From positions 20,063,071 to 20,127,070 of the forward strand of contig NC_049993.1 of NCBI RefSeq assembly GCF_000003815.2: DNA of 64,000 bases, in the 5' to 3' direction. This DNA comes from Branchiostoma floridae. Taxonomy: Eukaryota; Chordata; Leptocardii; Amphioxiformes; Branchiostomatidae. Below are positions 24,201-56,800 of this stretch, one piece after another. Position numbers and translations under genes: made by a program. Positions within the stretch are counted from its first letter, which is position 1. Every line of letters starts with the position of its first letter. The notes under the pieces were generated by a model. That model saw only the letters and a list, made by a program, of their open reading frames with translations, did not search any database and was not told the DNA's origin.

Positions 24201-27200
24201 AGGTGACAGACAGACAGATTTTGTCAGAATAAAGGTATAGTCCTCACCCCATTGTTGCTGAGGTCCAGGTACCAGATATTGGAGCAGGCCTCCAGTCCCT
24301 GGACAGTCTCGATGTGGTTACCACGGAGATGGAGCGCCTGGAGCCGAGGGCACATGTTCAACTTCTCCAGCAGGACTGGAGATGAGAAAGAAAATCATCA
24401 ATTAAAGAATTAATGAATTTTGATTAATGAAATGAGTCTAGTGGCTGCATCAACACCGTCTCTAAATTTTCTGTTATAGGAAAAATGCCTGCAGCCACGA
24501 ACACATGTTCAACATCTCCAGAACTCGGGAATAAAATCACAGTCATTAGATAATAGCAGATACTACTATCATCAATAGATAATAGAAGGTAATGCTATTA
24601 TCTTACCTATCACAAGTAAGATAGAAGCAGTGGCTGTTATCTATTTGATAATATACTTTTTATGTTTTAGAAATAGTGCCTGGAGTCGCGGGCACATGTT
24701 CAACTTCTCCAGCAGGACTGTATGGGGAATTAAATCACAGTCATTGATTTGTACTTTGTGTAATAATTGATGCCGTGTACAATTGTCGTACAGCAAAGTT
24801 CAAGATAATATAGCAGTGGCTGTCACAATATTCAAGTTATTAAATATAATTTTAAATTAGTGTTTTAAATTGTGTCTAATTTTTATCATTCGTAGAAGTA
24901 ATACCTTCACTGGGGGAACAAATCATAGTCATTAGATAATAGCAGCGTCTGTAATGTAGTATTCAGCAGCTATAGATACAATTAGAGTTCTCATTTTTTA
25001 TATTTCAGCCATACATAGTATGGTGAAATATATTGTATTCGTAATGTTTCTTCTTTCTTCTTTCTCCTGTCAAATCTTCAAAGTGATTCATCTCCGCCGT
25101 TCCTGAACCGAATGACCTGAAATTTGGCACAGAAGTAGAATGGGCTAATACCTTGATGCTTTTTTCTCAGTTTTTTCATATCTGCCTCTAAAATGATTTT
25201 ATTGAGATTTTTTGGTCAATTTTAGACCAAAACTGTATATTTTGGCCCCTGTACCCTGGTATTACAACCAAATGAGCTGAAATTTGACAGAGATGTGCCC
25301 TGATAATGCCCCCATATAAATTCGATAACACTTTTGGTGTACAGTACAACAAAATGCTTATTTTTGCGATATTTTTACCAATTTTTGATCAAAAAGGGAC
25401 ACTTTTGGCCCCTGTACCCTGGTATTACAACCAAATGAGCTGAAATTTGACAGAGATGTGCCTTGATAATGCCCCCATATAAATTCAATAACACTTTTGG
25501 TGTACAGTACAAAAAAATGCTTATTTTTGCGATTTTTTGACCAATTTTTGACCAAAAAAGGACACTTTTGGCTCCTGTACCTTGGTATTGCAACCTAATG
25601 AGCTGAAATTTGACACAGATGTGCCTTGATAATCCCTTCATATAAATTCAATAACACTTTTGGTGTACAGTGCAACAAAATGCTTATTTTTGCGATTTTT
25701 GGCCAATTTTTGACCAGAAAAGAACACTTTTGGCTCTTGTACCCTGGCATTACAATTAAATGACCTGAAATTTGGTATAGATAGGCATTAGATACTTAAT
25801 AACAAGATTCAAGTAAATTTTTTGACATAAACAACTTTAAAATGATTAATTTTGGCACTTTTCTGAGGGGAAATTTGTTTTCTTTTGGCCTCCTGACGTG
25901 ACCTTCCGTGACCCCGCACAGAGCCACACCTGTGCGCGTCAGCCGGAGAGTTAATTGAATCAAAGACCTAGCCAATCAGCGAAGAGGAGGCCAAAGGCTA
26001 ATTAATATTCATAAGCGGGGCCTCATGATCCCGTATATAGCAGTGTTCCCGCCAGGGGGAGCGAAGCCCGCCTAAGGCTCTCGCATTTTACACTATTCAG
26101 AAGGCTTTATATTGTATCAGTTCTTAGGGGCATATGTATGATAATCGCAGCAGTCACTTAACTTCTCTTCAGGAATTTAGCGTAACACTATTTCAGGTCA
26201 AACCGTCAAAGGCAACTAAAAACAAACTTTAACGTTACTGAGTTCAACAGTACTTATAACTTGTTATCCGAAGTTGAAACGCTAGCGCTAGCGATGGTAT
26301 TTTCGCTGCGCTGTTAGCTCCGTGCGACTGTTGTTGACGGTCTTATAACGGTATATTTTGCACCCCTGTACCCTGGTAACATTTGGTATAGATAGGCATA
26401 AGATAGTTGGTAAAATGATCCATTGGCAAGTAAAATTTTTGGCATAAAGTACTGTAAAAGGCTTAATTACAGCACTTTTTTGGGGGGAAATTGGTTTTCT
26501 TTCGTTCTCCATGCCATGACCTTTCGGACGTTCACCCCACAGAGCCGACATCTGCACCTGCGTCTAGCCGGCAGGAAGAGTTAATTCAATTAATGGTTCA
26601 GCCAATCAGCGAAGAGGAAAGCGAAGGCTAATTAATATTCATAAGCGGGACCACACAATACGTTAACTTGAAGACTCAGGCCGTACAGACTTCTCGCCAG
26701 GATTTTTTCAAAGCGTCGGACAGGGGTCCGGGGGCCGCCGAATGTCCCTGGCGGGGTCCAGGGGCAGGGCCACTGTGGGGGGGGCTCAGGTGGGCGAAGC
26801 CCCCCCGGAAGCTCTTGCATTTTAGACTATTGAGAAGGCTTCTTTTATCAGTTTTTTTAGGGCCATATCTACGATAATCGTAGCAGTCACTGACTTCTCT
26901 TCAGCAGTTTGACTTTAAAATATTTCGGGTCAAAGCTTCAAAGACAACTAAAACCTCATAAACAACAAACTTTACTTAGCTCAACAGTATACAAAAATAT
27001 TGTACGGGTTGCCATCCTTAGTTGAAGCGCTTATTTATAGCGCTAGTATCTTCGCTGCGCCGTTAGCCGCCGTGCGACTTTTGTTGACGGTCTGATATCC
27101 CTACGTCGCCGCCTCGCTGATATTCCCACGGACATGTTCCCTAGTCAATAGATCAGCATTTTCTCTATAGTGACCACCTGTCTATAGTGGCCACATTTCC

Positions 27201-30200
27201 TAGTGCTGTTGTTGTTTGACATAAACTTTGAACATTTAAATTGTAAGTAACTTTAAACTGCCAGAGTTTCAGCCCAATAAAACACTCTCAGCGCCAGGGT
27301 ATGAACAGACTGACCAGACAGACGAAAATAAATCCTCGAACAAGGTTCAATCGTATCTTCCGGGTCTGGCAGGAAGTTGTTAAACTAAAATAAGAATAGG
27401 CTCGATGGCTGATTGCATACAAAGTAAAACAGTTTAACAGTTTTACAGCTTGAAGAAAACAAACGCTCCTACAGTACCTGCACCTGCTTGATAATTATTA
27501 AATCGTATGCCCTACTTGAATAAAAAAAAGTTTACTGCAATAATAAATGTACCCACATCACAAGGAGCTTGTACTTTTTTAAACTTACACCTAGTTATCG
27601 TACTGAAAATTGTTAATGACATTACATGAAGTCATTCAACAATTTTCAGTCATGATGAAAATTTTCTGAATGGAAGGTGTGATTATTGTCATTTTCTGAA
27701 AAATAGAAGCAAGCTCTGTTTTTACCTGGAATCAATTCACAATACCAGTCCACTTTGGGGGATAATGTTAAGAGGATGTTCCATTTTTGCGCAGGGGTGA
27801 TTTGGAACAGTCCAATGTTGCGTGGGAAGGGGTATGGCTGAAATATGCTGTATTTGCTCTTAAGCAAATGTCGGCCTTTCTAGTTATCTATTTATTTTTC
27901 TTTGGATTTCTACACTAGCCTGAGAGCTACCGTAAAGGCAGTCATTTCTAATTTGACCAAATTTTGTTACGGGAAGCTTATACGGGAATGATGGATCATC
28001 ATGATTCATATCACTAACAAATTGGTGTAATTAGGTCAAATTAGTTTACTGAGAATGATGTAGCACAAAGCTCTCATGTCACAGTGAATNNNNNNNNNNN
28101 NNNNNNNNNNNNNNNNNNNNNNNNNNNNNNNNNNNNNNNNNNNNNNNNNNNNNNNNNNNNNNNNNNNNNNNNNNNNNNNNNNNNNNNNNNNNNNNNNNNN
28201 NNNNNNNNNNNNNNNNNNNNNNNNNNNNNNNNNNNNNNNNNNNNNNNNNNNNNNNNNNNNNNNNNNNNNNNNNNNNNNNNNNNNNNNNNNNNNNNNNNNN
28301 NNNNNNNNNNNNNNNNNNNNNNNNNNNNNNNNNNNNNNNNNNNNNNNNNNNNNNNNNNNNNNNNNNNNNNNNNNNNNNNNNNNNNNNNNNNNNNNNNNNN
28401 NNNNNNNNNNNNNNNNNNNNNNNNNNNNNNNNNNNNNNNNNNNNNNNNNNNNNNNNNNNNNNNNNNNNNNNNNNNNNNNNNNNNNNNNNNNNNNNNNNNN
28501 NNNNNNNNNNNNNNNNNNNNNNNNNNNNNNNNNNNNNNNNNNNNNNNNNNNNNNNNNNNNNNNNNNNNNNNNNNNNNNNNNNNNNNNNNNNNNNNNNNNN
28601 NNNNNNNNNNNNNNNNNNNNNNNNNNNNNNNNNNNNNNNNNNNNNNNNNNNNNNNNNNNNNNNNNNNNNNNNNNNNNNNNNNNNNNNNNNNNNNNNNNNN
28701 NNNNNNNNNNNNNNNNNNNNNNNNNNNNNNNNNNNNNNNNNNNNNNNNNNNNNNNNNNNNNNNNNNNNNNNNNNNNNNNNNNNNNNNNNNNNNNNNNNNN
28801 NNNNNNNNNNNNNNNNNNNNNNNNNNNNNNNNNNNNNNNNNNNNNNNNNNNNNNNNNNNNNNNNNNNNCGTAGTGACCGCTGGCTCTGACTTTCGCTTGC
28901 TAATCCTCCGTAGTGACCGCTGGCTCATGACTTTCGCTTGCTAATCCTCCGTAGTGACCACTGGCTCAAGACTTTCACTTGCTAATCCTCCGTAGTGACC
29001 ACTGGCTCAAGACTTTCACTTGCTAATCCTCCGTAGTGACCGCTGGCTCAAGACTTTCGCTTGCTAATCCTCCGTAGTGACCGCTGGCTCAAGACTTTCG
29101 CTTGCTAATCCGTGGTTAGTAAGTGAAAGTCGTGAGCCAGCGGTCACTACGGAGGAATCGTACTCAGGCTAGTATTCCAGATCTGACATGCCTCATTAAT
29201 CAGTATGGTCAGTTATTTAAGTGTGTTTGTAAATATGCTTACTTAGATACATATTAATGACTGATGTCTGTCTCACTGCTAGATGTACATTCAGGTTATA
29301 GAGTATCTGCTTTAGTTATATTTGCTGATAATCAGAAATGTTCTCATATGATTGTACATTGGTTTTAATTCATTGGCAACACTACAATGCCTTTAATAAA
29401 GTTCTCTCCATATTGTATCTTGTATCTAAATTACATCTCTTTTGCTATCAGCTCTCTACATCATACAAATGCTACGTTCAATATTATTGATTACCATACA
29501 CCATAGTTCACTATAACCTAAAAGCTTATTAGGTTATAGGTTATAGTTCACTATAACCTATAACCTAATGTTCTTTTTTTTTAATTTGTATTGTTTATGT
29601 GTTTATGTGTTTGTCAGCAGGGCTAGCCCTTTGTAATAGCCACAGGCTAGTTGGGCAGCCCTGGCTGTGTGTTCGGTGCAGCCAAACCAATAAATAAATA
29701 AATAAACCTAAAAGCTACGGTATTATTCATATTGACTTTCCACATTGGGTAAATCCTGTTTGTCTAAACTTCAAAAGACACCTGTACAGACCAGGTAAAC
29801 ACAAGGTGCTCAATTCTGACACTTCACCTGCGGTTACCTAGCAACCAACAGGTGTCCACTCTCCCAGGAAGGGTCTTAAGAAAGAAAGTTTCCCCCAGCC
29901 TTTCTTCTTTTCTTGTTAAGAACCACTCTAATTCTAATTCTGAGATTTTTTTGAGACCAGACAAAAGAAGCACGCTACTGTTGAACTAAGATTTTACAGC
30001 CTACATAAAAAATATTTCTACTATAAACATTTTTCTTTCTGTACATCTAAATTTTTCACAGTTGAACTCCCGGTTTGTCACACAGTATCTGGGAGCATTC
30101 TATTATTAGGACTAAAATTTCCATACAAATTGTTATTGTAAGTAATGAAATATTTTACAGCCAATACAATGGCCCTAACACCAGTTAGAATAGCTTCCGA

Positions 30201-35665: not shown

Positions 35666-35847
35666 TTAATAGAAGGGGACGGGAACGACCTTGCACTTGG
35701 TGATGCCCTCGCCGGCGGGGCCCTGGTAGCACTTGCAGATCTTCTCGGTGCCGATCTGGGACTCAACCTGCTCGACAACCACGTCAGACACCTGCTTCAG
35801 CAGCCTGTGCTCGCCCTCCAGCAGGAGGTCCACGGAGAAGATGGAGC
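35666..35847 (-). CDS. Lipoprotein exon 37 (C-terminus, stop)
   Basis: Residues 2509-2568. SIFSVDLLLEGEHRLLKQVS, then KICKCYQGPAGEGITKCKVV and PVPFY, TAA at 35666-35668. No sequons. A donor gtgagt follows one base after the stop, so an intron lies in the 3'UTR. Confidence 0.92.
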
Positions 35848-38800
35848 CTGGAGGAGGAGGAGATGGGGACAAGGTAAGTGAAACTGTACTCTATGACTGC
35901 CTTACTTCTCTGATATGTCATTCTGTCCGTTCTGCTAATTTGTCCCATGGGAGTTGTAAAGACTTAGTATTGTGTGCTATAAGAGCATTTTGCCATCAGT
36001 TTATCATGATTAGCGTAGCTTTACTGGGTTTTAGATATCAATGTTGGCCACCATAGGTTAACTTCCGATGGTTCAATGTCATAGAAACAGTTATATGAAA
36101 TCTTAGGCCTGTGCTAGCAATTATACTGAACAGTCACAGTTTCAGTCACAACGTTTGTTTTTGCTGTTGTTGTTTTGTTCTCGTTATTTTTTGTAGAGGC
36201 AACAGAGTAAAACCTACCCTTGGTGGCGGTGCAGAGCTCGACGTAGACGCCCTTGGGCAGCTTGACGAGGCCGGAGATGGAGTGCTTCTTGGGCACCTTC
36301 TTGTCGGTAATGATGTCCAGGTTGTACTTGATGCCGAAGATCTCGTCGACCTTGGACTTCTTGATCTCCTTGTAGCTGGAGAAGACGTTCAGGGTGATGG
36401 ACTGCTCGGCAAGGATCCTCTTGATCTCACGGATCTCCTCGGGGTTCTTCTGGACCTGGGGTAAGACGTGGACTCGTCAGTTAACGTCTTCAAGATCAAA
36501 ACAATCTCAATCTAAGACTATGCACAATTTCAAGGGTATAGAGATACATTAACGTCTACTTTTAGTTACATTTTGGTAATGATTTTGTTCTGTCAAAATA
36601 ACTTTTTCATACCTCAGATTTTCAACCCATTTTCACGAAAAAATAGAATAAGTCAGTATATGATGAAGGAAAAGCTCATTTAATTTAACCTTCTCTGTTC
36701 TGTTGTACCCATAACCTGTACAAATGTGGTGCCAAAATGTCTACCATAGCAGAGTGACAGTTAAACCATAGGCAAGTCTGCACTCATTGACAAACCACTT
36801 TAGGTGTGATACAGGCGGATAAATCTAAACAAAAACAAACAAACAAACAAACAAGCCCACCTTGTCCTCCTCAGTGATGAGCAGGAAGATCTTGGAGGCC
36901 TCGGGGCGGAAGGGGTACTGGGCGGCCATGCGGATGGCCTCCATGGCGTTGGTGGTCTTCTTGCCCTCGAACTCGAGCTCCTTCAGAGCCTTGTTGACCT
37001 CGTTGATCTTCAGCTGGCCGAACAGCTCGCCGTCGATGGTGTGCACGTGGGCGGCCTCGTGGACGTCCTTGCCGCCGAAGCCGACAACGGCCACGCGGAT
37101 GTCCTGTTGGCATGGCAACAACATCCGGAATTAGTTCAATATTCGCCATGGATACGAGAATCTTTATCACTTAAACTTTTCAGAACGACACTTCATCTGA
37201 AGAAGGATCAATCCAATATTCGTCACGGTAACAAGAATCTTTGACTCAAAGTTAAACCTTTTGCGACGAGATATAAAAGTCATCTTAAGAAAAGAGTGAC
37301 ATTTTCGGTACCCTCTTGAGTCGTCTTTAAGAAATTATCCATAAGACATGGTCAAGAATCGAAAGTGTTTAAGACATCTTTCAAAGTAATTATACATCGT
37401 CAAGAAAGTGTACCCGTAAGGCAAACGAAACAACGAAATATTGATACGAAACTTCAGGATTTATCTTTAAGAAACCAAACTAGACATTAAGGAACATCAG
37501 AAGAAATCTTCAAGAAAGCGTACCTCGTAAGACATCTTCTTGTTGAGCTCCTGGACGAGCTTCTTGAGCTGGTGCTCGGGGTTGTTCCTCTTGGTGAGCT
37601 GGATGTTCTCGGAGACGATCAGGACGATGTCGGCGGTTGGCTTGCTCTTCTGCCACCAGGTGTCGTTCAGCTTCTTGGTCTTCTCGCAAACAGCTGGAGG
37701 GGAGGGGGGGTGGTGGGTTGACATGTTTAGCTCTATCAACGTTTTCTTTGTTTTGGTTGACAAGATTTTCTTGTAGAATGCTCATGGAACGAAGAAGATA
37801 GAAAATACCATGAACCAGCAACAGCAGCAACTAACTTGAATACTTTAAGTTGCCACTCTATCTGGGAAAGAATGATTTAGTCAGTTTGAATTGTCATCGA
37901 AGTCTCCTTGTACGACCACTAAGAAGTTTAACTTGATGTTTTGATGGGATATGTTGCTGTTACTAGTCCCAAGTATTTTTCAACTGAAGATGGAATAAAA
38001 AGAATTTGCTTCATGATAAGCTGTGGATATCGGAAACTGTAGGAGGTTAACACTTACTGCACTCAGCAGTCTGGTTGATGAAGATGCCCTTGAACTGGCA
38101 CATGTTGACGTAAGCGCCGATGGTGGAGCAGTAGGCGGTCTGCTCCTGAGAGTACTTAGAGTCGTACTCGCAGGCCTCGCGGAAGGGCTCGGGGTCGACG
38201 GTCTTGAAGCACTTGGCGTAGGGGGAGCTGGTGTTCTTCTCCCAAAGGAGCTCGCGGCAGATGGGGTTCACCTTGCTCAGCTTGACCTTGGCGACCTGGA
38301 ATTCGATTCGAATGTCTGTTTAGAACAAGAATACGTTTGAATATCTATTTAGAGCAAGAATACCTTCGAATCTCTATTTAGAGCAAGAACTATGAGTATT
38401 ATCAAGACACAAGCAAACCAACGAACCTTGTTGTACTGCTGCCTGGGGCTCAGCTTGCAGGTCTTGTAGCCGGTGACCTCGTAGGAGTTCAGGAACACGG
38501 CGACGTTGGAGGTGTTGGTGCCGTCGGGGCGGCGGAAGTCGGTGGAAGGCTCGTTGTCGCTGGTGCCGAGCAGACCCAGGGTCTTGTTGTGGTACTGGCC
38601 GGAGATGTTGAAGGCGCAGAGCTGGTTGACGGAGTCGCAGATGACGCTGATGCCGTAGCGGGTGGTCACGTTGACGAAGACGCCGGTGCGGGTGATGGTC
38701 ACGTTCTTCTCGGGGGTCTGGTAGGGCAGCTCGGAGGGCTGGCTGGTGCCTGCGGGAAGGAGGCGTTCAAGACGTTATAGCAGTGTCTTAGGAAGGGATA

Positions 38801-41800
38801 AGACGTTATGGCAATGTCTTAGGAAGAGATAAGACGTTATAGCAGTGTCTTAGGAAGAGATAAGACGTTATAGCAGTGTCTTAGGAAGAGATAAGACATT
38901 ATAGCAGTGTCTTAGGAAGAGATAAGACATTATAGCAGTGTCTTAGGAACAGGTAAGACGTCTTAATAAAGAGATAAGACATTATAGCACAGTGTCTTAG
39001 GAAGAGGTAAGACGTCCTAAAGAGATAAGATGGTTAAAGCCGAAGCTGTTTACGTACCATCGATGTAGACCTTGCTGTCTCCAGCGATCTTGACGACGAG
39101 CTCCCTCAGCTTGATGGTGACGGACTCGGGGCTGCTGAGGATGGTGAAGTTCTTGTCCAGGAAGTCGCGGGCCATGACGTACATGCAGTCCTCGTTCTTG
39201 TACTCGGGCACGGCGTACATGCGGCCGTCGAAGGTGTACACGTGGTTCTTGCCGAAGATCATGCCGGTCTCTGTGGGAAACAGCAGGGGAATGGCTGTTA
39301 GCTTGAGGCACTTTTTTATCTAGATTCATCAGAAACATACAACTCCCACAAGTACACGTCATCATGACAGTAGCAACATGGAATTGAAAGCAACTTGTTC
39401 ATTGATATGTATTTTTCCTGGTTGAAACAACGAAAAGAACACTTCTTGAAAGTAACACTCATATATAACAAAACGCGTTTTGTTAACGTTGTGGATATGA
39501 CATTGCCTATTGTGTTCCATTATACGAATATCCATTGTTTCTATGCGGTTTAAAACGTTTAATGCTCTTGTATGATTTTAGCCAGAATGACAAGAAATGG
39601 AGACCGAGGATCTGTACGATGTGCTTTTTCCCTCCTGTGACAAACGTAAACAAGCAAAGAATCGAACTTACTGGTGGTGTACATGTTGAGGGTCTTGTAG
39701 ACGGGCCTGGTGAAGATCATGTCGTAGAAGGCGGTGACGATGCTCTCGGTGTAGGTCCTGTTGCGGTAGGTCTGGTTCTGGAACTTGGGCAGCTCGTAGA
39801 AGCTGGTCCAGTTCATGTTGTGGGTCAGGTTGACGCAGATGGAGTTGTTGTTGAACTGGTACCCATTGAAGAGGAAGTAGGACAGGGCGTTGATGGAGGC
39901 GTTGGTGATGGTCAGGTTCTGGGGGATGGTCGCGTTGATGGTGTAGTTCACGATCATCTGGGTGATGGGCTCGTACTTGTAGAAGTTGGTCATCCAGGCT
40001 GGAGAGAGGAAACGTGGAGATATTCAGTCAAGCATCAATGCCGTCCACTTAGAACATGCTGTTTAACCTACAGTCTAGCAAACACTTCTGTGCGAGGACC
40101 ACCTTGTCACTAAGACCACTAATGAAAAATGAGCTAAGGAAGTTATATCATTTTCCTTTGACCAAAGACTTAAGAATGCAGTCTTTTGTGGCCACCTGTC
40201 CTTTGTAACAATTTACATCCTTAGAGTTGTAGAGTTATATATACTGGACAAGATTGACTGCATTTCTGCCCTTTCAACAACTGAGGATAAAACGGTAAAG
40301 ACGGGCAAAGATTGCTCAGTAGATGAGTACCGTACCGGGCAGAGTCCTGTTGAAGAACTCGGTGGTGTTGTAGGTGATCATGTTGGTGATGTTACGGATC
40401 ATGTCGGTGCCGTTGAAGGTGACGTTGAAGAGGGGAGTGCCGACGGTCAGGTTCTGGACCAGCTCGTAGGTGTAGTTCACGGTGGAGTTCACCAGGGTCA
40501 TGGTGTAGTTCATGGTGGTGTTCAGACACTGCAGGAAGGAAGAAGATCAGTTGACTGTTTCTATATCAATTTCTATGATCCAATATTTGTGTCATAGACA
40601 AATGAATGATGCCAACCATTGTGGACTTCACTCTGGTGGAGTATTTCACTCAATGCTGGATCGAGTCATTTCATACACTATGTCCCGTCTATGTACATCA
40701 ATGGAAAGCTGTAAAATGTTCCGTATTTGGTGCTTACCTCAGCGACGGTCTTGTTGAGGTACTGGACGGCGTACTTGTTGATGGGGTGGGTCTGGTTACG
40801 GGTGATGTTCCAGAACTGCTCCACGGCGCGGGTCAGGTTCATGGTGGAGTTCAGAGCGGTCAGGTTCCAGGTCAGGTTGGAGTACAGCATGGAGGTCTCG
40901 TTCAGGGTCACGTACCAGGACAGAACGGTCTCGTTGATGTCACGGGTCTGTGAGAGACATCAGAAGAAAATGAGACTTGAGAATGATGTTTTTGTATCTC
41001 TTACATTGCCACAAATCATTTACAAAATCGTTCTGGTTTAAGAGACGTGTAGCTTAAAGATTACGAGTCCACAAATGAGACTTGAGGTTTCTTGTATATT
41101 TCATGTTGAAAACATTGGATCGGAAATATTTGTACAAAAAGAGACTCTAGAGGGATGTTAAGAAGGATTTTAACAATCAATGACAAATTCCCTGATGACG
41201 AATTGTAGCTTTCAGTACTTTTTAAGGTACTTTCTGGAACATTTACATTACATCTACATTTGTCTTTGGCTAACCTATTTCAAACTCAAGAAAACCTTAA
41301 AGAATGAACTTTCAAACGAAGATTACTTACGATGTTCTTAACGTAGAGGGTGACGTTGAGACGAGTCTTGTTGGGCAGCTGGCCGAGCAGAGCGATGGAG
41401 CTGTTGAAGGTGGGGATGGTCAGGTTGGCGTACAGGGTGTCGTTACGGGCGGTCACGTTGAAGGTGACGTTCACCCACTGGGGAGCCGTGATGTTGACCA
41501 GGAAGGTGCTGTGGAGGTGGGGATAAATAAATGGTTAGATCAAGGGAAAACATTCACATTGAGACAGACAAGTACTTCGCAGTTGGGAAATATGTTTTCA
41601 ATTAAACCGCACAAGTGCCCACTTTTGCATATTAACGTCAGCCTGCTAAGGCGTCCGTTTGGCATCAAATATGTATTGGTTATGGAGTTAGGAAGCAAGT
41701 TTCAAAATCTTACATCAACAGTTTTTTTCCCGGATTGCCAAACAATGGACCTTTCTCGATGACAACTGTTTCCCTCCTGTCTACAACCTTCAAGCCTTCA

Positions 41801-44800
41801 AAACCAGAGTTCATCGCTATCTTCTGGCAAAATGATTTCCACCATCTATCAACTTTAGTCCATTGTCTAGAAATGGTCAAATGGCCTTGGTTTAAACAAA
41901 CCTGTATAAAAAGAAACGCTAACCTGTTGAGGTTGGTGACGTTCATGCCGGTGATGTTGAGGCCGGTGGTGTTCAGGGTCACGTTCACGGTCAGGTCAGG
42001 GTGGGTCAGGTTCAGCCTGGAGGTCACGTTCACCTCGGTCAGGTTGTTCAGGTGGGTGGCGTTCAGGACACCTGTGCAGGTGAGAATACAGGTAAGCATA
42101 CAGTGTTGTACATTTCGGTAAGGATGCAATGTAACTTTCCTTCAAGTTGATACATGTATGAGAAATAGACAATTTTTCGCAAACGTTACAGAAAACAATG
42201 GATTAGTAAAACGCTAGCTAAGATTAGTTTAAACAAGGTTAAAAGTTTACAGTAGTTTCATAGCCATCTCCAAACAACTTTTAAGACTATCTAACAAGAC
42301 ACTAATAATGTTTGTTTTTTAAGTTTCCAGACATCTTTCTTACAGAAGGCTGAACTACCGTCTTACCCTGCATGGTGAAGTTGAGGAACTCCATGGAGGA
42401 GTTGGAGGTGACGTTGACGAAGGCGTTGAGGATGGAGACGTTACGTGCCACGGTGACGTTCTGCACGGTACTGTTGACGGTGACGTTGTAGATGGGGCTG
42501 GTCAGGTTCATCTCGTACGTCAGGTTACCCAGGCACGGCAGGCTGATGTTCTTAGGGATGCTGGAGAGGGGGAGGAAGAGGCATGTGTATGTTAAAACAT
42601 AGCATTGTAAAATGTAACATCTAATGTTTGTACTGATGTTTTCGCTCCATTCATGAAAAGGCAGAGATTTAAATGTTTGTAGAGGATGATTTTATGACTA
42701 TGGCTAGTTTGCTCTCAAAGGAGTAGAAAGGCAATGGTGGTTCATTTGTTGGAAACTCTACAAATCGTCAGAATCCATTCGCAGAGAAGACTGAAGTGTC
42801 TATGCCTGGCTTATTTGCAAAGCTTTTGCTCTCGGGATTACGAAGAACAGAGCAGGAGGGCTTTTGGTCTCCAAAATCCATTCACAGAAATGACTATGTC
42901 TCATTTAAAAAGCTAAGAATATCTGCTCTACGGAATTTTTTCATCATTTGATACGTTTTCAGGGATGGGCACTCACGTCATGTTGGGCAGGGTGTAGTTG
43001 ATGAGGCGCAGGATGGGCCTGGGGATGATCTGCATCTTGGGCAGGGGGATCTCGATCTTGCCGACGATGGGCTCCAGCTCCTCCAGGAACTTGGGCTCGA
43101 AGTAGGAGATGTTCAGCAGACGGACGATCATGCTCTCGTTAACCTGCCTCAGCCAGGGGATGGACTCGAAGCCGAAGATCTGGAAGGGCAGCTTGTAGCT
43201 GGCCAGGTAGACGGGCATGGTGATGTTCTCAAACAGAGAGCTCACGTTGCTCAGAGACAGGTTGCCGATGACGGGCAGAGGGATCTGGGGAAGAGAAGGA
43301 GAGATTAATAAATGCTTTATCTGCAATCTATGTCCTCTTGTTTTCTGATAAGATCTGGAGGAAATATCCTTTTAAGTATACCCTTAAGTCTTCTTTCATT
43401 CATGTGCCTCTAGAGAATGTTTTTTAAAGATCATATTGCAAACTGAAGGATGGAGACATTTCTGCTCATCTGTAGATGCTTCACTTTTTTTGTGGGGCCT
43501 CAGCCTACCTACAGGTAACCCTTTCCCTTTCCCCATAACAAATCCAAACTTGGGACAAAGAAGCTACCTCAGTAGGCTAAGGGTTAAAGTTAGACATCTC
43601 ACCTGGATGGTCTCGTTCCTGGGGAAGGTGTAGTTGAGCTTGCCGGTCCAGGTGGCGTTCTGCAGCTGGTAGGGGGAGGTGCGGTTCAGCCTGGTGATGT
43701 TCCACAGGGAGGTGTTGAAGATGGTGACGTTCTGCAGCAGGGTCAGGTTGGCGCAGGCGGTGGCGTTCCAGTAGAACTCGACGCCCTGGGTCTTGTTGAT
43801 CAGGGTCATGTTGTGGGTGGCGTTGATCTTGAACTCGGGCACGGTGATGTTGCTCACGATGGTGTAGTTGCGGCCCTGCTCGTGGGTGGCGTTGACGACG
43901 CGGGCGCTGAGGGTGAAGTTCTGGGAGCTCTGGTTGAAGAAGCTGGGGTAGGTGAGGTTCAGCTTGACCTGCCAGACATCGGGCTGGGGCTTGCGGATGT
44001 ACTTCCCGCTGTTGGGCTCGTAGTACCTTAGGAACAAAGGACATACCAGTTAGTAAAATGCACAAGAACCTTAGGTGATCTTTGATGGGAGATACAGTCA
44101 CCATCAGCGCCAGGAATCTTGTACAAGACAAGTTCTCAAATATGTCTGCCATTGTCATTTCTTGTATCTCAGATTTTGTCGTTTTCCCTCATTTTTTTTT
44201 CTTTTTTACCTCCAGAAATATTCTTCAAGACATTAAATACGTCTGCCAATGCTATTCCCTGGCTCTCAATTTCGTGAATTTTCTGAATTCACAAACAAAA
44301 AATCTTGTGCCATTAAGGATATGGATCAAGTCCAAACTGTTTGTATTCTGCCCTCAAAATTTTAAGAAATTCCTTTGCTATTATTGTTACAACCAACATT
44401 GCATTAAAGGTTGCTGCTTACCACTTGTTGGTGTTGGGCTCGGGACTCTCCTGGGAGACGTTCCTCATGGACAGGGCGGCGGTCCAGTTGTAGAAGGACA
44501 TGTTGTACATGGTGCTGTTCAGCATGAACAGGGTCACGTTCAGGGTGGAGTTGTACTCCTGGGTGCTGTTGATCCAGCTGGCGTTGATGCACAGGAACCT
44601 GGAGGAGGAGGAGTGGAAGCATTTACTTCATAGTCCTTCAAAGAATCTTACTTGAAGAAATATTTTGACACAAGATGCATTACTTGAAAGGAAGTGTCTT
44701 GTTCTCCTCTTCTTGTGACACAAGTATTTTTCAAGATGTATCTGAGAATCCCAAGATGCATGCTTGCTTCTCAAGGTAGAAGATATAGAAGACTTTCGTC

Positions 44801-47800
44801 CGACCCTCAAGACATTTTCAAAGACCAGATCTTTGTTGTCATTTTACATTATAATAACTCCTTTGAGAAAACTTCTAAGATGAGGCACAAAGTAAGGTTA
44901 CATCTCAGAGTAGGAGATACTTGAGAACTAATGTTTGGAGATGTTGAAGACATATACTATGTTAACTTGGTCGGATCTCAAAGACCTCGTTAACTATTTC
45001 TACAACCTTTGTAAGACATGCTTACCTCTCGACAGAGGAGACGTTGAAGATATAGGTGAAGTTGGTGAGGCTATCGATGCTGGAGTTCAGCAGCTGGTGG
45101 GACACGTTGATGAAGCGGGTCTCGTTAGCCGGGGTGAGCCAGGTCAGGTTGGCGGAGGCGGAGTAGTTGGCGGTGTTGTTCCAGACGCGAGCCAGGAAGG
45201 TGATGTTCTGGAAGGGGTAGGTAAGGTTCATCTGGCTCTCCCAGACGGTCTCGTTGTCGGAGGACTTGTTGAGGTAGGCGTAGCGCAGGGCCAGGACGGA
45301 GATGTTCTCGGGCTTGACCTGGTACTCGGGCTTCAGCCAGTCAAGGATGGGGGTCACGGGGTCCCTGGGGAGAGGAGGAGGAGAATTTAGTAAAGATCAT
45401 CATCACAAAAGACTCAGGGAATATCATGCAAACTAAACCTTTAGTTGTTGCTACCGGTTTTCTGAAGTCTGTCTAACCTTGGTCTAACAGGACTATTTGC
45501 ATGGAGTCTTCCTGCCATACACCATGTGAAAATTTCAATATCTGTTGCTATCTGTTTGTAACACTGTTTCTGACAGATCATGCACCATAACTTCACGTTA
45601 TTTCTGACAGAAGCATGCATTTTAAGACTACATGCTCTTGACACTTTAAGAAGTAAAAACACACCTTTCTGAGCTGTTTCGTGCTTAATTGGCATCAGTT
45701 ACAAGCCTATGAAAACACTTTGCTACATTGCCGTAAACTCACCAGTAGTAGGTGACGTTGACGTTGGCGGTGAAGTTGCCGGTGGAGTTCAGGGTGCGGT
45801 TGACGGAGGAAGACCAGGCGTAGGTCATGTTGGACACGGTGAGGTTGGCCAGCATGGTGTAGTTCTGGGTCTGGGTCCTGTTGCAGGTGACGTTCAGGTA
45901 GCGCCACTCCATGGTCAGGTTCTTCTCGGGGGCGTAGGTCACGTTCATCACCATGGTGTAGTTCATGGTCTGGTTCCACCACTGGGACTCGTTGGCGATC
46001 TGGTGGAGAATAAAGCAATAGAGATTTTAGATCAAACTGAACATGATTTTAGAGAGATTTTAGATCAAACATGCATTACTAAATTAAATGGACACCAATG
46101 AAGGTGTGTGAATATAACGAACATGCATAGAAACAAACTAGCTAGTCAATGTTTACTCAGTAGAGCTAAGCTTCTTGTCTCGCTCAAATTCCTTTTCTGA
46201 GACTCCTTTCTATCCTTTTCAGCAAATACACAGATTTTAGTCATTTCTTAACCAAATAAACGAAAGCTGAAGATCCATCGATAACTTATTGCCTTATTTT
46301 TAAGTTCTCGAGACATTAAAGTTTGAGAGCTTGAGAACATCTTGAGACCATAAGAAGCACGTGTTTCTCACCTTAGCCCAGACGGTGACGTTCTGGACCT
46401 CTGGGACGGTGATGTTCCAGAGCAGCTCGGTGGTGTTGCGGTTCAGCTGGAACAGGGAGGTGACGTTACGGGTGTAGTTCTGGCCGGGGGCGGAGAAGTT
46501 GACGCGGATGGACTCGATGAAGTTGAACTGCTTGGGGTCCTGGCTGAAGCGGGTGCGCCACAGCTGCTTGCGGGGCTTCTCGGGCTGCTGCACGCGCTGC
46601 TTGATCTGCTCGTACTTCATGGCCACGGAGTAGGTGGTCAGGTTCCTGGAAAATTACCATATATGGTCATAAAACAGCTTCCTGGAAATTTACCTCAATT
46701 GTCATAAATCAGGTTACAGGAAATTTACCCTATATGGTGATTGATCAAGTTCCTGGAAATTTACCATATATGGTGATTAATCAGATTCCTGGAAATTTAC
46801 AATATATTTTCAATTAACAGTGATTAAAGACTAAGCTGCTTACAGATTACAACAGAGCTGCTTACAGGATACAAGTTTGAAGTCAGAACATGTGTTTTCA
46901 ACACAAAAGCTGCTGAATTTGGTTCAGTCATCATGCGACAGAAGAACAAGATTGCGAAAGTGGGGAAAGGAACTAGTCTCTACCAGGCTCCCCAGGTCGC
47001 TGGAAAAATAGTAGAAACCGGCCAAATAGACAGAAAACGCACCAGAGGAGTTGGATGGCCGAGGTGTACAGTTTGCGACCTTGGCCGATTTCTACTATTT
47101 TAGCGACCTGGGAAGCCTGGTAGAGACTAGAAAGATATGTGAGGAGTTATATTGCATCCTTACTTGTCGGTGGGGACGATGGTGACGTTCAGGCTCTTGA
47201 CCTGTCCGATGAGGTGGGAGACGTTGCGGTAGGTGCCGTTGACGATCTCGCCGGTGAAGCAGAGCTCGACGCCCAGCACGTTGGTGGTGTTGGTGCAGTT
47301 CTTGAAGCTGGTGGAGTTGGTCCTGGGGACGCGGATCTCGGTGATGTTCTCGCGGGGGCGGATGAGGTAGATCTCGCGGCTGTAGTTCATCACCTGGAGG
47401 TGGCAAGGCGGGCTTATGGTTAGGGTATGTTGCCTTAGAAACTAATGGTCCTGGGTTCGAATCCCCAGGAACTGGTCTTATTAACTTGGAATCAAAAGGT
47501 TCTGGGCTCAAATCTCTAGCAGATCTGTCAAGTGGATAGGGTTTTCTTAGTTCAAATCCCCAGCAAATTGGTCTTGCGTTTAGGGTTGTTGTCTTAGAAT
47601 CGTAAGTTTTTTTTAGTCCAGATCCTAAGCAAATTGGTCAGGGTTGTTAAGTTTGAACTTAGAAACTAAAGGTTTTTGGTTCAGATCCCAAGCAATTGGT
47701 CTTGTGGTTAGGGTTGTTAACCTGGAATCAAAGGGTTATGGGTTCAAATCCCAAGCAAATTGGTCATGTGTTAAGGGTTGTTAACTGAGAATCCAAAGAT

Positions 47801-50800
47801 TCTGGGCTCGAATCCCTAGCAAATTGTTCTTGTGGTAAGGTTGTTTAGGCAAACAAACAAAGAACACTGACCTGCACGGGTCCGGCGGTGTTGTTGAGGT
47901 GGAAGCTGAGCTCGCCGTTCTTCAGGGTGACGTTAGCGGAGATGTTGGAGGAGTGGTACAGGGTGTCGTTCATCTGCAGACCCACGGTGCTGTACAGGGG
48001 GCAGTCCACAACCATGCGGGACACGATGCTCACGGTGGCGCTGGGGATCACCTGCAACCAAGAAATATTGGCTTATTAGATCGTTATGATCAGGCAACGT
48101 TTTCACAGCCATCTAAGGCTAAATCATTTTCATAGCCATAGGGCGAATCATTTTCACAACCATAGGCGGAATCATGTTCACAACCATAGGCTGAATCATA
48201 TTCACAACCATAGACTGAATCATTTTCACAACCGTAGGCTCACTTTTTACAGATACTAAAACCAACTGATGACTTCTGTGGCAGATTGCGGCATAACACC
48301 TAACTAAATTGACGACATCTGTATTATAAAATCCACATCAATACTATCTTAAAACTGGCTTAAAACAAACAAGGTTAGTGTTTACGTGTACAATGCATAG
48401 TCTCAAATTTCTCACTATTGCTACATTTTTCAATGTATATGAGTTACGGTCCATTCAGAAGATTGAATCGAACCATATAGACTTTTAAGACTCAGAAGGA
48501 CTTTAAACGATGTAAACTGTATCTCTGTTACATACTTTGTCTGATCCTTGCCTCTGCCCTCATGACCTCAATGAAAAGCGGCTTGCAGGCCGATTTGAGC
48601 TTTCATGAAGGTTCAAACAAACAAACAAACAAACAAACAAACAAACAAACCTTGGTCTTGATGGCAGCCTCGCGGGGCTGGGTGAAGATCTTCTTCAGGT
48701 CGGCGGTGATGTTGACGTCAGCGCGGGCCACCAGGGTACCGTTGGTGCTGATGTTGAGTGGCAGACCCATGATGGTGGGCAGGGTGTAGCGGGCCTCCAC
48801 GAACTTCCAGGCGGCGGTGTAGTTCTTCTGGATGCCGCGGGACAGGGTGTCCAGGATCTGGAATGAAGGAATCAAAGAATGAGTGAGTGAATGAATGAAT
48901 GGATTATTGAGACGTGATACATCGCAGCTAAAAGCTGAATTACGCACGCTGTACAGTATCTTTAAAGACAGAAGCATGTAAATGTACGAATTACTTTGGG
49001 ACATACAATATAAGAAACATCGATAATGCAATATAAATACGCTTTGACATTTTCGTGACTTCACTTTCAGACAAACCTTATGTAGATACACATGTACAAT
49101 GATCGATTTAAAATGAAACTTTATGCTGTTGTTTTTTAAATGGTCTATTACCACTGGGTTGTTTTGTTTAATAGAATGATGTATTTCTGCGGTTTTGTCT
49201 CTCACCTTGATGGGGTTCTGCTTGAAGATGGTCTGGTTCATCAGCTGCTCCAGGGTGACGAAGCCGAACTCGTTGCCGAGGATCCTCAGGGTGGAGGAGG
49301 CCTGGGGGTAGGCGCGCTCCTGGCGGACCTCCTTGTGGAGATCCTCAAGGGTCTCCAAGACGTTGTTGGCCAGGGGAGACTTCTTGGGCTGCTGCTTCTT
49401 CTTCAGGACGGTCTTGAGGGTCTCGTCGGGGTAGTATCCCTTCTGGCCGAAGATGGTCTCGACGTAGCTCTCCAGACCCTCCATGTCGAAGGTCAGGTCG
49501 AAGAGGTTGACGGGCATGCCGAGGGCCTCCAGGGTGTAGTTGAAGGCGATCTGGCGGGGCAGGGGGCTCTCGGGGTGGTACACCACGTTGGTCAGCAGAC
49601 GGTTGATCCAAGACTGTGGGGAGGAACGGTGAAGTTGTTAGATGAAATGTTTAACTGACAAACGGAACTCAAAGGAAAAGGAAACATCACTTTGTAAGAT
49701 TCAAGTTTTTCCCCAGCTCTCTGTTTTCATCCAAGCTCATTCATGTTCAAGAATGGACATGGTCTAAACATAAATTTGAAAACAGTGGGGCTGAGTGGGG
49801 CTTCTTCTCTTGTAAATGGTTTAAAACCTTAAAGTCTTGTGTTCACACCAAGGACAATTACTGTTGTATTGGGGTCACCCAAGCGCCCAAAGGCTGCCAT
49901 CGTCTTAGTCTAAGTAAGTCATTTGGCCGGTTGTTGCAGAGTGAAAGCAGTCGGTTCATCCCAAAAGAAAGAAATAAAAGAATAAGGAGTACTCACGATG
50001 TTGGTGTATGGCACGTACATCTCCTGGTTGTACTGGTAGTTCTTGCTGAACTTCATGGCCTCCTCCTCCTGCTCGGGCAGGGTGATCCTCTCCTCGCGGA
50101 CAGTCTCCTCAACCAGCTGGCGCAGGGGGCGGACAGCGGGCTGCTCGGAGCGGCGGATGTTCAGCAGGTGGGAGGAGATGAAGGAACGAACCTGGTGGGA
50201 AGATGGAGTTGTGGTTGTTGATGGGGTTGTTGTCTTAGAATCTAATGGTTGTGAGTTTGAATCCTTAGCGAATTGGTTTTGAGGTAAGGTTATTGGTTCG
50301 AATCCCTGGTAGGTACAAATGCTGTACCCTTGGGAAGACTCATCCAGTTGTAAATGAGGACATAGCTTCAGGTGTCCTCTTGGATAAGACGTTAAGACTT
50401 AAGATTTTTTAAGAAAGCCACAGCTAGATCATGTTTAAGAACCCACCAAACGTATCGAAAGAGTAGGTGTCCATCCCGGATCAAATCTTAAAGTCCGGTC
50501 TTAGTATGCAACTTGTACCTGTACAGAAATTAGTATGTTACCCTAGGGTACTTTACTTGTTATGCAAAGCATACAGACAAACAAATAAACAAACAAGCCC
50601 ACCTGGTTGACCTGCTCGTGCTGCAGGGTGCGCAGGATCTGGACCAGGTCGGGCTTGGTGATGTTCTTCATCAGCATGACGTAAGCGGCGATGCGCTGCT
50701 CAACATCCTGCTCGGGCTCGGTCACGATGGTCTGCAGCTCACGGCGGACCTGCAAGGGGGCGGAAATATAGTTTCGTCATTTATAGTTTATATTCCAATC

Positions 50801-53800
50801 AATACTTGAAGATTGTTACAAGACAATGGTTGAAAAGTTTCTCCTTATACATTCTAAGAAATGTCATCGTTAAGTCAAAAAACGATTTGGAAGCAAAAAG
50901 ACGAGCGACGATGGACACAGACTGTGGGCTTGCACGAATTTGGATTCCCAGTCTTACTTTGTAGACACTTTGCATCCAAGAACACTTCGTCATTGAACAA
51001 TATATCTTTCATTGTAATATGAGTACATTGAGGAGGGCCCACAAGACACCTCACTTTATCTGTCTCTCCATAGTTTTTGTATATCTTTCGTGACATGAAT
51101 AATGACAAACAGACAAACCGACCTCAGGGGTGAACTCCATGCGGCGGACGGCCTGGATGGCGGCCAGGGAGATGTTGCGGGGGACGACGGGGTTCTTGGC
51201 GCAGCGGACCAGAGTGGGGACGATGCGGAAGTCCTTGCGGAGCTCCTTGTCCAGCTTCTGCACGGGGTAGCCCATGTTGCTAGAGTAGAGTAGAGATATT
51301 CGGTTAGGTAGGAGTTTCGCTCCAGTTGACGGAGGTTCTACTAGGAGCCACACTTTCATAATGCTTTATTTGGTGCTTAACATGTAGAGGTTGGCAGGGT
51401 ACTAACACTAGGTCCTGAATTGCTCATCGCGTTACCGTAACAGACTTAACGAGAACATTTAAAATCGTTCGCAGTTGTCAAACGTATTTGAATATTCAAA
51501 ATATACATATGTTGGATAGAGCGATAAAACTTTATCTGCCTCTTCTTAGTTTTTGAATGTGTTGTTTGACATGGATGGACAAACAAACAAACAAACAAAC
51601 AAACAAACAAACAAACAAACCTGATGGCCTTCAGGGCGACGAGGATGTCTTCCTGCTCCTGGATGGCGACGCGGGGGTTGTTGGCCATGTTGGTGAGAGG
51701 GGAGCAGTCGAAGCTGATGGTGTTCAGCAGCATGTCCATGGACTCACGGATGCACTGGGGGATCTCACGCACCTCGCGGGCGGTCTGGGGAAAGGAAAAA
51801 TGAGTGAGTGAATGAATGGATGGATGAAAAAACAAATGAACGACTGAATGATCAGATTCTATGATTGGCAAAGTCATAGCACTTCCCTAGACAGATTTAC
51901 AGCACATTTAACTATCTATTACCAAACTGTGTACCGTCATCTTACTTTTAAAGGTTCTTTTCTCAAGGTTGTTTTGTTTGTCAAGGGGCCTACTCTTACA
52001 AAAAATACTTCAATGAACTGTGTTCTGTAAGTCGTACAGAAATAAAATTGATTTCCTTGAGACACAAATAATAGAAACTGTTGGAGGGCTTGTATCACTC
52101 TGTAGCAGAGTATGGCAGATGATGGAGATGCAGTTGCTATGGAAACCATGTGCGGTGTGAAGAAACAAACAAACAAACAAACCCACCTGGTTCTTCTGGT
52201 AGAAGTTGTAGATCTGGGTGGACAGGGACAGCAGAGCGGGGCGGGTGCGGTTGAGCTTGGCGACCTTCAGGGTCTCGTTGATGATGGGCAGAGTGGGCTC
52301 GGTGATGAAGGCCAGGCTGTACATGAGCAGGTCGGCGGTGGTGCCGTTGATGGTGCCGTTCATGATGGCGTGGCTGATGAGGGAGATGCAGGGCACGGAG
52401 CCGCACTGGGGCAGGGCCTGGGGGGGAGGAAAACATGCGTCAAGTTTTGTCATAGGTCCGGACACCCTCGGTTTATTTTCAAATCTATGACTGGCGCTGG
52501 AAATGTATTTTCTGATGTGTTTTTGCCTGGATCCAAACAAAGAATTAATTTTTGGACAATTATTTTAAATCTACGACTAGTGCTGGAAAATGTATTTTCT
52601 GTTATGTGCCTATTTTTTTACACTAATAGGTGGAGAGGGGAAAGTCGTTTAAAGTACTCATTTTCCAAGGAACATAATTGGTAGCAACCAAGACGTCTGG
52701 GTTCTGGGCAAAAAGGTCTGTAGTTACGTCAAAAGACCCAACACTATTGCCAAATGCACCAGTGCAAGTCAACTCACCTGGACGAGGTAGTCCTGAGCCA
52801 GCTGCTGGGTGGAGTTGCAGGAGAAGTTTCCGGTCTGGTTCTGGTAGATGATGGGGAACAGCTCGAACAGAGACTCGTTCTTCAGGCTGCGCAGGGAAGC
52901 CACGAAGCGGTCGAACAGGATGGTGGAGTTGAGCTGGGTGGTGTTCCTGGGGAAGAGAAACAGAGAACATGATATTAGTCTTCCTCAAAGGAAATCCATG
53001 ATCACTCACTCACTCACTATCCGGGTTAACGTCTGTTGTTCCCCATCCCTTGGGGGTTAGACGTGCTAACATCATCTTTGAGTTCTCCCATTCTCTTCCC
53101 TTTTTGGTTGTGGTAAATGCATGCAGGTCCCCAAGGCCCCCGGAGAAGGAAAACTCTGAAATACCCAGCTAGTCTCTGAATGCCGATGATGTGCAAGATA
53201 ATACAAGCAGATTCCAATACTCACACTTCCACACACAAGTCGCCAGTTATACAGTTCAACCACACAAACAAGAAAACTACAGAAGATTTAATAAACAATT
53301 AACACTTTCGGTATACATTCTTTCCCCGGACTACCAATCTATGGAACTCTCTCTTTGACAACTGTTTCCGTCTGTATAAAATCTTCAAGCCTACAAGTCC
53401 AATGTTCACCGACATTTCTTAGCTCAATAATTTTCTACAATCCATTCCACTTACTTCACTGCTTAGAAGTGGTCATAAAGGCCTTGCATTGAATGCATTT
53501 TGCATTGAATGAACCATTAGAAAAAACGATTAATATGATGTAATAACTAATACTTACTTGGTGGTGTTGACCAGCTGGATGAGAATGTCCAGGGTGGTGT
53601 TGATGGAGGTGTTGGAGGGAACGGTGATGTTCTCGAACTCGTAGGTCAGGTTGCACACACGGCGGCCCTCTGCAGGAGAAGAGAGAATAAAAATCCGTCA
53701 ACGCAAAATAGTCACCAAGAAGTGGCTGCAAGTATCATGTAAGTTAAGAAAAGAGGGAAACTTTTTTCAGGGGAGACAATAAAGTTGAAAAAAAGTTTAA

Positions 53801-56800
53801 CTTTCATCTACACAAAGTGTCAAAATGGCTATATAGGCATCAAGCAAATTGTTTTTGAACAACTACTCTATTGTGGACCTAGCCATCTTCAGCTCAAAAG
53901 GTGCTCAATTGTTCTAGGATTCAACTTTGTATTATTGAGGCAAATGTAGTTTCGAATGGATTACAAAGTTTCAAGTACAGTCTGATTTAACGTTTTGCAC
54001 GTTCTGGAATACAGTGATAAACAGACGCATCACTTACCCAGAGAGGTGTCGATCTTCTTGCTGTTCATGGTCTCGGTGGATCCCTTCTTCAGCACCACGG
54101 TGATGTTGGTCTGCACCCCCTGGCGGCTCTGGTTAGATGACAGGGGCAGGACAGTGTACTGCTCCAGGCAGTAGACCTCGCGGATCTGGCCCTTGCGGTC
54201 GATCTCGTAACTGCAGTTCTGGGTAGAGTTCAGGTTGTTCTCCACCTGCCTCTGTTGGCCAAAGAAATAAAAAAGTAAGTTTTGAAAATTTTAAGTCACA
54301 ACCCAAATTTTAACAGTGTCAGGGTGGGGGTCTCGCATTTCAACATATTTACACCGATTTACGATAAAAAATGGTTACATGCAATTTGAAATGGAAAGCT
54401 TCTTTTTTTAACCAAATATTTACTACTGGCATCAGGTGTATACTTATTATCTTACTTTGAAATATGGATGTTAACGTCACAACACCAAGATAAAAACAAG
54501 CGAATGTAGATAGATACAGACAGTTACCAAAGTAACAAGTGTTTCCATCGACTTAACAATCTGTATCTGTATCTGTATCTGTATCTGTATAGCCGGTATA
54601 ACCGCCATTCGGCGTAACACACCAGCTTCGCAGGCACGCGGCGCGGCAGCAGCTGGTTATATTACACTGAACGATCCGTCACACCTAACTTTTGCACATC
54701 TAACTGCAAGCGTTCTTTAAAACTATCCAGAGAAGATGCCCCTACAAGGGACAAATGCAAACGTTCAGGCCAAATTACAACCGTTTTCATCGACCGTTTC
54801 AAAAGTTCAGAGTTAACTACTCACGCTGATGTTCTTGAGGATGGACAGAGGGGACAGTTCAGTGATGGTCTTGTTGGGGCGGGTGCAGTTGCTCAGGTCC
54901 CTGCTGACGTTGTAAACGGTACGTCCCTGCTTCATCTTGTAGACGGTGTAGTTAGCGGAGCAGTTGCCGTGGATGTCAGTGACCTAAGGAGGAGGGAACG
55001 GAAAGATACAGTTAGAGAATCGTCTTAAAGACATTGCAGAAGAGCTAAATTAAAGATGTTTCGACATCAATGTATTAGGCATCGTAAGATTGAAACTTTT
55101 CTGCATCTAAGAGGAAAAAAGGTTGTGACGAATTTTCTTTGGCGGAATCTGTTTTGTCGTGAGCGCGTTTCCTCCATTGTGAAATCAGTTTAACTTTTCT
55201 ACACTTTTGTGTGTACTAGTGATTTTTTTTTACTCAGTAGATGGTATTTGAGCCAGATAGTAAAATCAACGTCTTAAAGACGCATATGTCAGAAGGAAGA
55301 TCAGACTAAGACGCTATGATCTTAGCAAGGCGGAGAGTCATAATTTTATTTCATTTGATCTCTTAATTGTTTACTGTTATTTCGCATATGTGTACGAATT
55401 TATCCCCCAGGGATCTTTCACAATCTTCAGCCAGGCAACATGTTCCCCTGGCAAAATCAAAATAAACAAACAAACAAACAAACAAAGAAAGAAAAGACGC
55501 TTACGTTGACGGTGGTGTTGCGGGACTGGTGGACCCTGGCGGGCTCCTCCACCTGCTGGACCTGCAGGGAGCTCAGGATACCCTTCTTAATGTTCAGGAT
55601 ATTCAGAGGCTCCTCAGTGCTGGGGTACACGCCGTACACCTACACAAACAAACAAACAAACAAACATTAGAAGACGATTCGAAGCAGTGATTATCTATCT
55701 TGGTTTGACCACAATGTGCAGATGAAATAGAACTACATGTAGATCTTTTATCAATAAAAAATTCGTTTTTCCGACAATATCAACACGTAGAATGGAACTC
55801 GTTGCAAGGACGGCAGGGACATCATCAGAGAATTTTGGATGATTTATGAAATTTTTAAGTTGAAGAACAAAAGTGTGGCGCGTCGACGTAATATGACGAC
55901 AAGTAAGGTAAGGATAACGAAAATAGCGACGTGAGAAATCGCTTTTTCTACACCACGATTGAAAATAAAACTAACAGTTGATGCCGAAAAAAAAAGTTCC
56001 TTGACCAAGACTTGAGCTGTTCACTCAAAAATTTGAGTAAGTCCAATTTTCGTTTCAGAAATTACTTGTCCAAAACAAACAAACAAACAAACAAACAAAC
56101 GCACCTCTCCGCGGGTCATGCGGAAGTAGAGCGGGCGCTCGGACATGGCGAGGGAGAACTGGCGGGAGTTGGGCGCCTTCTGGTACTGTTCGGGGCGCAC
56201 CAGCTCCTCCAGCACGCAGCCCTCAGTACGCAGCAGAAGCTCGCAGGACTCCGGAACCTGGAACATAATCATTATGTTAAATGTTAATCACTACACGAAG
56301 AGTGGGGTTTAACAATAGCGGTAAATGTCAGGTGAGTCTGGTAATGAGATAAAGACATGTGACAAGTAATGTTCAGCTTCGCAGAACACGAAGTGTCTGA
56401 ATTAAGCTGGTGTAACAACACTTCCGTATTCTTTTAAACGACTGATCAAATTTGCGAGAATCTTTTTAGATTTCCAAATAGTATAGATATAGATTGGCAT
56501 ATAATGAGTCAATCATGGATGGTAGTAAAAAAAATATTATAATACTCAAGAAATATTTTATATCACCTCAAACAAACAAACAAACTAACAAACAAACAAA
56601 CAAACAAACCTCGACTTGGACATTGCACTTGAGTTTCAGGCCGGTTCTGTCTTCGGAGAGGCCGACAATGCCGCTGCTGACCTCGCCCTCGTACTTGTAG
56701 CTGTACCTCACTCCTTCCTTAAATCTATTTCTCTCCTCTGCAAGTGAAAATAAAACAAAAACTCCCGTTAGAAATTGGGCCTGCAGTACGTATGATAGAT

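Follow-up and report, generated by a model that had tools for sequence, protein, structure and literature searches.

The closest described relatives of the protein considered here are human apolipoprotein B (apoB), apolipophorin II/I, decapod apolipocrustacein and the vitellogenins. Apolipophorin II/I and apolipocrustacein combine an LLT module with a C-terminal VWD domain, and vitellogenin likewise possesses an LLT module and a VWD (PMC1783640), along with the open beta-sheet for which the corresponding Pfam family is named. A gene with all of these elements, here called gene A, lies in the window analyzed, a 64,000-nucleotide stretch of the Branchiostoma floridae genome (contig NC_049993.1, termed C15 below; C15:20063071-20127070). 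In human apoB-100, 19 potential N-glycosylation sites are spread over 4536 amino acids (aa), with at least two of them at 0% occupancy in the excerpted text (PMC4891372), whereas protein A displays 181 N-x-S/T sequons in 2556 aa. Judging from its sequence, we propose that the product of gene A is probably a large lipid transfer protein (LLTP) of apoB type, exported from the cell, in which the belt that wraps the lipid has become a dense N-glycan brush.

The model of gene A, based on codon usage and splice signals, comprises 36 exons in a single open frame, and 35/35 of its introns have GT-AG boundaries. On the promoter side a TATAAAA is found at 59275, 108 bases before the ATG, and the first AATAAA past the stop codon is at 35344. 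The parts of the gene are listed below in window positions; the Pfam E-values in the list come from an early model that was without exons 1-2 and had its first three residues wrong.

35666..59167, minus strand: gene A, LLTP gene, with the ATG at 59167 and the stop codon ending at 35666
59122..59167, minus strand: exon 1, putative signal peptide MKLLIVCLLVAGTLA, judged by eye
49997..56737, minus strand: exons 2-13, Vitellogenin_N (LLT) module (Pfam PF01347, E 1.9e-54)
47872..50191, minus strand: exons 13-16, Vit_open_b-sht, about aa 652-933 (Pfam PF09172, E 3.2e-51)
39672..48051, minus strand: exons 16-29, the belt, aa 876-2022, 1147 aa with 135 sequons (exon table)
45743..45999, minus strand: exon 19, 14 sequons in 85 aa (exon table)
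43603..44026, minus strand: exon 22, 18 sequons in about 142 aa (exon table)
41331..42560, minus strand: exons 24-26, very dense, with 10, 9 and 9 sequons (exon table)
38427..39270, minus strand: exons 30-31, VWD domain with GLLG replacing CGxC (Pfam PF00094, E 4.8e-17; motif scan)
38058..38295, minus strand: exon 32, C8 domain (Pfam PF08742, E 1.6e-09)
36218..37693, minus strand: exons 33-35, VWA domain without DxSxS (Pfam PF00092, E 5.2e-08; motif scan)
35666..35847, minus strand: exon 36, C-terminal tail containing cysteine (exon table)

These Pfam domains bear out the first-pass annotation of this DNA, a reading of the bare sequence that had recognized a large lipid transfer protein, and the interval 39672..48051 that it had singled out coincides exactly with exons 16-29 (numbered 17-30 there, with its aa 888-2033 becoming aa 876-2022). 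The Vit_open_b-sht match overlaps the first belt exon, and the belt itself gave no Pfam match with an E-value of 1 or below. The gene has a strong codon bias, with a GC content at third codon positions (GC3) of 0.94, Lys encoded 136 times by AAG vs once by AAA, and AAC as the codon of all 181 sequon Asn residues.

With 135 sequons in 1147 aa, the belt has one per 8.5 residues, and 86% of its 157 Asn residues are within sequons. None of 2000 draws in any of three null models reached this number: shuffling of the composition gave a mean of 29.1 (standard deviation 4.6, highest 45), a null that keeps the polar/non-polar pattern gave a mean of 30.4 (highest 46), and a dipeptide Markov null gave a mean of 37.3 (highest 56). 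The reversed motif, S/T-x-N, is found 36 times; given this count and the null means of 29-37, sequons are about 4 times more frequent than expected, and only in the forward orientation of the motif. Densities per 100 aa are 4.2 in aa 1-875, 11.8 in the belt and 1.7 in the C-terminal part, and the densest 100 aa of the protein, beginning at aa 1684, hold 17 sequons. A separate cluster of 26 sequons is found in the N-terminal part (exons 5-9, aa 155-449). The sequon density of the belt is thus real, regional and beyond what composition provides, as the first-pass annotation had maintained. Its hand counts stand up closely as well: about 131 belt sequons against our 135, about 14 in 85 residues of what is now exon 19, about 21 at residues 169-384 (exons 5-8 contain 21) and none in the last exons (zero in the last three). 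Its chance figure of one sequon per 100-150 residues, on the other hand, exaggerates the contrast, since N and T are abundant in the belt.

That abundance (13.7% N and 12.5% T) is what favors reading the sequons as an artefact of composition or drift, that is, as chance motifs that are left unused in an N/T-rich region. The reversed motif, the three nulls and the spacing tests described below rule out composition as the source of the density, and the exclusion of Pro, the conservation between paralogues and the avoidance of sequons in a third paralogue further contradict this explanation, which we regard as barely credible.

The oligosaccharyltransferase has known preferences concerning Pro and Thr at sequons. 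In the belts of protein A and its paralogue B (see below), an Asn is followed by Pro in 0/157 and 2/308 cases, respectively; since the definition of the sequon itself excludes Pro at this position, only this count constitutes evidence on +1 Pro. At +3, Pro is found in 0/135 (A) and 2/264 (B) of the belt sequons. A sequon directly following another, at a spacing of 3, is observed once vs 20.6 expected in A and once vs 30.9 expected in B, and Asn occupies the middle position of 3 sequons vs 18.5 expected (A) and of 1 vs 29.3 expected (B). Thr-type sequons outnumber Ser-type ones in both belts (109/135 in A, 178/264 in B). The same tests, applied to the N-terminal cluster of A (25 sequons), gave no significant departure. 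Taken together, the grammar of the two belts fits that of used N-glycosylation sites, including the way in which the STT3A complex passes over NXS sites that lie close together (PMC4750078, excerpt). Pro is also enriched at +4 (18/135 in A, 55/264 in B), and the resulting N-x-T-x-P pattern may mark the ends of strands.

A genome search recovered LLTP exons on C15, C16, C5 and C6. Two further LLTP genes on C15 are of particular relevance as paralogues of gene A.

C15:20208761-20251970, plus strand: paralogue B, about 87 kb from gene A, about 4226 aa with 286 sequons
C15:19840139-19880739, minus strand: paralogue C, 11 sequons

The models of the paralogues and of the vitellogenin-like genes are automatic and unedited, and as the finder uses the codon usage of gene A, they may show more codon bias than the genes really have. 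Across three settings, the B model varied between 4226 and 4289 aa and between 286 and 289 sequons, with tiny exons 20-22 and 39-42 being doubtful (the latter carry 4 sequons); the C model is incomplete at the 5' side and includes exons that are repeated. The belt of B is 2.4 times the length of that of A and holds 264 sequons in 2777 aa, with the reversed motif found 74 times. Parts of the A belt match several parts of the B belt, no self-matches indicative of internal repeats were recovered in A or B (blastp, 1e-3), and a query with aa 1362-1778 (417/1147 belt residues) gave 9 matches at E up to 0.001, all of them in A or B. Exons 39-43 of B, from C15:20235688-20236392 onwards, are small and nearly identical (CEIPSINITVPYT), and perhaps represent a recent tandem duplication or an error of the model. 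In paralogue C the picture is reversed: its 11 sequons vs 27 reversed motifs, against null means of about 26, fall below nearly all null draws, so that C avoids sequons. The vitellogenin-like models, which are fused or partial and leave out the C6 locus, have 13 sequons in 3572 aa (C15), 1 in 1281 (C16) and 4 in 649 (C5), and residues 83-983 of human apoB contain a single sequon. Hence, the earlier view that the relatives of A are sparse in sequons holds for human apoB 83-983, C and the vitellogenin-like proteins, with the LLTPs of insects and tunicates lying outside this comparison.

A comparison of belt sequons between the paralogues came out in favor of retained sites. The A-B alignment takes in 112 of the 135 sequons of the A belt, and 71/112 (63%) of these are also sequons in B, as against identity at 175/589 (about 30%) of the other belt residues. 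The middle residue of aligned sequons is identical in 29/111 cases, non-sequon Asn residues of A are kept in 2/17, and Ser and Thr are exchanged in 19/71 shared sequons. When N, S and T were masked prior to alignment, 56/111 sequons still coincided vs 9.6 expected. From these sequences, evolution seems to preserve the sites of the belt sequons, because the duplicate gene B keeps so many of the same ones.

In a seven-row tree of N-terminal modules, A and B are sisters (96/96) and group with human apoB (100/100), while C falls outside A, B and apoB and the three vitellogenin-like rows form a group of their own; the kinship is provisional because the rows are few and uneven in letter make-up (A, C and Vtg1), and the tree was built without an insect or crustacean APO sequence and without the C5 model. 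The best PDB match of A is human apoB (E 2.2e-108, best stretch aa 16-1025), and N161 of A (N161-C-S) aligns with human apoB N185, a residue listed with Man5-9 glycans in the excerpt of PMC4891372. Thus, A shows the Vitellogenin_N module and open beta-sheet that characterize the LLTP superfamily and, of the APO features, the grouping with apoB and the C-terminal VWD. It differs from apoB-100 in carrying VWD-C8-VWA, from the APO family in the extra C8 and VWA and, together with B, in the sequon-dense belt, and from the vitellogenins in that the vitellogenin-like rows separate from it in the tree and their models are sequon-poor. The RX[KR]R cleavage motif (furin, subtilisin-like) that belongs to the apolipophorin II/I and apolipocrustacein branch was not found in A, B or C by a motif scan. 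Among the matches listed from open-licence papers, searched by titles and the starts of abstracts, there is no sequon-dense LLTP.

The VWD-C8 region of A also matches von Willebrand factor, gel-forming mucins and FCGBP in PDB, and its layout with a long glycan-rich middle recalls such proteins. This raises the alternative of a gel-forming, mucin- or clotting-like protein, in which VWD-C8 assemblies would polymerize and the belt would take the place of an O-glycan mucin domain. However, CGxC, on which such assembly would be expected to draw, is absent from A, B and C in the motif scan, A has only one VWD match, its glycan signals are for N- rather than O-glycans, and the same C-terminal VWD-C8-VWA region aligns in B and in the sequon-poor C (by alignment, not Pfam). 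We therefore consider this explanation quite improbable. Across the entire A and B proteins, CGxC and DxSxS have zero occurrences.

Returning to the lipid-belt interpretation, the composition of the belts is compatible with retained lipid binding. Charged residues (D+E+K+R) constitute 12.2% of the belt in A, 11.5% in B and 26.5% in C, and hydrophobic residues (VILMFYW) 38.0%, 36.6% and 32.5%, respectively. Around the Asn of sequons in both belts, the hydrophobic fraction is 0.52-0.62 at -1, +1 and +3 vs 0.33-0.47 at -2 and +4, which is locally consistent with an amphipathic strand. We envisage that protein A would enter the endoplasmic reticulum through its putative signal peptide and that the belt would be glycosylated there, its sites lying at about the minimum distance that still allows modification. 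Its hydrophobic residues would hold lipid, and the glycans would fill the outer surface, in the role played by charged residues in C, whose ordinary belt has many of them. Published proteomics of egg coats suggests haemal fluid, the egg or the egg coat as likely destinations.

The last of these leads to the main rival explanation, namely, that A is a matrix glycoprotein of the egg coat, a glycan-rich component acting in sperm binding, hydration or the block to polyspermy, with lipid binding secondary or lost. It takes this place because apoB-like proteins have been found in two such coats: one is among the non-zona-pellucida proteins of fertilized egg coats in Branchiostoma belcheri (PMC3543715, excerpt), and in the vitelline coat of Ciona the most abundant protein is apoB-like, with a 70-kDa sperm partner (PMC9265791, excerpt). 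The VWD and C8 domains of A also resemble those of matrix proteins. Against this, the B. belcheri protein may be a different LLTP, and treatment with PNGase F left the gel pattern of those coats nearly unchanged, which argues against an abundant, heavily N-glycosylated protein there, though such a large protein may enter the gel poorly. Moreover, lipid binding is not visibly lost, as the hydrophobic content of the A and B belts equals or exceeds that of the C belt. We rate this explanation as less likely than not and well below the lipid-belt interpretation, although the two may both be true.

The codon bias of gene A, along with the GC3 of the vitellogenin-like models (0.90, 0.79 and 0.74), suggests mass production, and a vitellogenin-like pair is located about 0.16 Mb away on C15. 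These observations would accord with a nutritional glycolipoprotein whose sequons chiefly serve to store sugar for the embryo. Yet the vitellogenin-like models are themselves sequon-poor (13 in 3572 aa in the C15 model), and the spacing rule and the conservation of positions look stricter than bulk storage would require, making this an unlikely explanation.

Several findings weigh against the proposal of a lipid-wrapping N-glycan brush. Although DUF1081 follows the LLT module in B (Pfam, 8e-16) and C (8.7e-11), as in the APO family, it was not detected in A at E up to 1; we therefore refrain from a formal assignment of A to the APO family. Sequons of the N-terminal module are kept between A and B no better than other residues (16/37, 0.43, vs 327/751, 0.44), and for this reason the signal of selection is located in the belt; the conservation as a whole is that of paralogues of one genome. 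The STT3A complex skips closely spaced NXS sites (PMC4750078, excerpt), and some belt sites may accordingly stay empty. The charge-replacement scenario, examined in the stretches alignable with C, finds a weak trend in A, where Asn residues lie on charged residues of C in 21/58 cases vs 290/1140 elsewhere, and no trend in B (7/28). Finally, the first-pass annotation had pictured the sequons on one face of the strands as a glycan sheet. Even and odd spacings between 4 and 13 give no consistent same-face signal in the two belts (71/53 in A, 99/115 in B), and we have dropped that arrangement.

Elsewhere in the window, a finder trained on gene A codons, and thus suited to genes of similar make-up, gave no gene model over threshold outside gene A. 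Searches with Rfam (at gathering scores) and ARAGORN found nothing within the window. Two tandem arrays are present, one at window positions 28869-29111, with 6 copies of a 41-base unit (97% matches) adjoining a run of N, and another at 25190-25774, with 3.6 copies of a 163-base unit. Exon 14, the only query used against viral contigs, gave 34 pattern matches, none of which was confirmed. In the wider genome, a lancelet-derived fluorescent protein used as query uncovered a large, clustered family, with 68 exon matches on C4, C17, C14 and C3 and an identity as high as 88% in one short exon, whereas a Pfam search for GFP matched neither the genome nor its 14 controls. Among chordates such a family is a mark of lancelets, so that on this evidence, too, the DNA is very probably from amphioxus.

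More tentatively, and with slightly less than even confidence, we suggest that amphioxus has arrived at a new solution for a soluble apoB-type belt, in which most of the surface charge has been traded for an N-glycan brush at about the closest spacing tolerated by the glycosylating enzyme. It would be found in two paralogues, the belt of one being 2.4 times that of the other, and would amount to a mucin-like design built with N-glycans on the scaffold of a lipoprotein, possibly for use in the egg or the egg coat. A glycan of Man9 size has a mass of 1.88 kDa; were all 135 belt sites to hold one, about 254 kDa of sugar would be borne by 126 kDa of protein, and the belt would be about two-thirds sugar by mass. 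If its sites are used, this relative of the human low-density lipoprotein (LDL) protein would, to our knowledge, be among the most densely N-glycosylated proteins. It would then provide a natural test of the packing limit of N-glycans and of whether glycans can replace charge on a lipid-binding surface, with the sequon-poor paralogue C as a built-in control within the same genome, and it would bear on the roles of apoB-like proteins in chordate egg coats.

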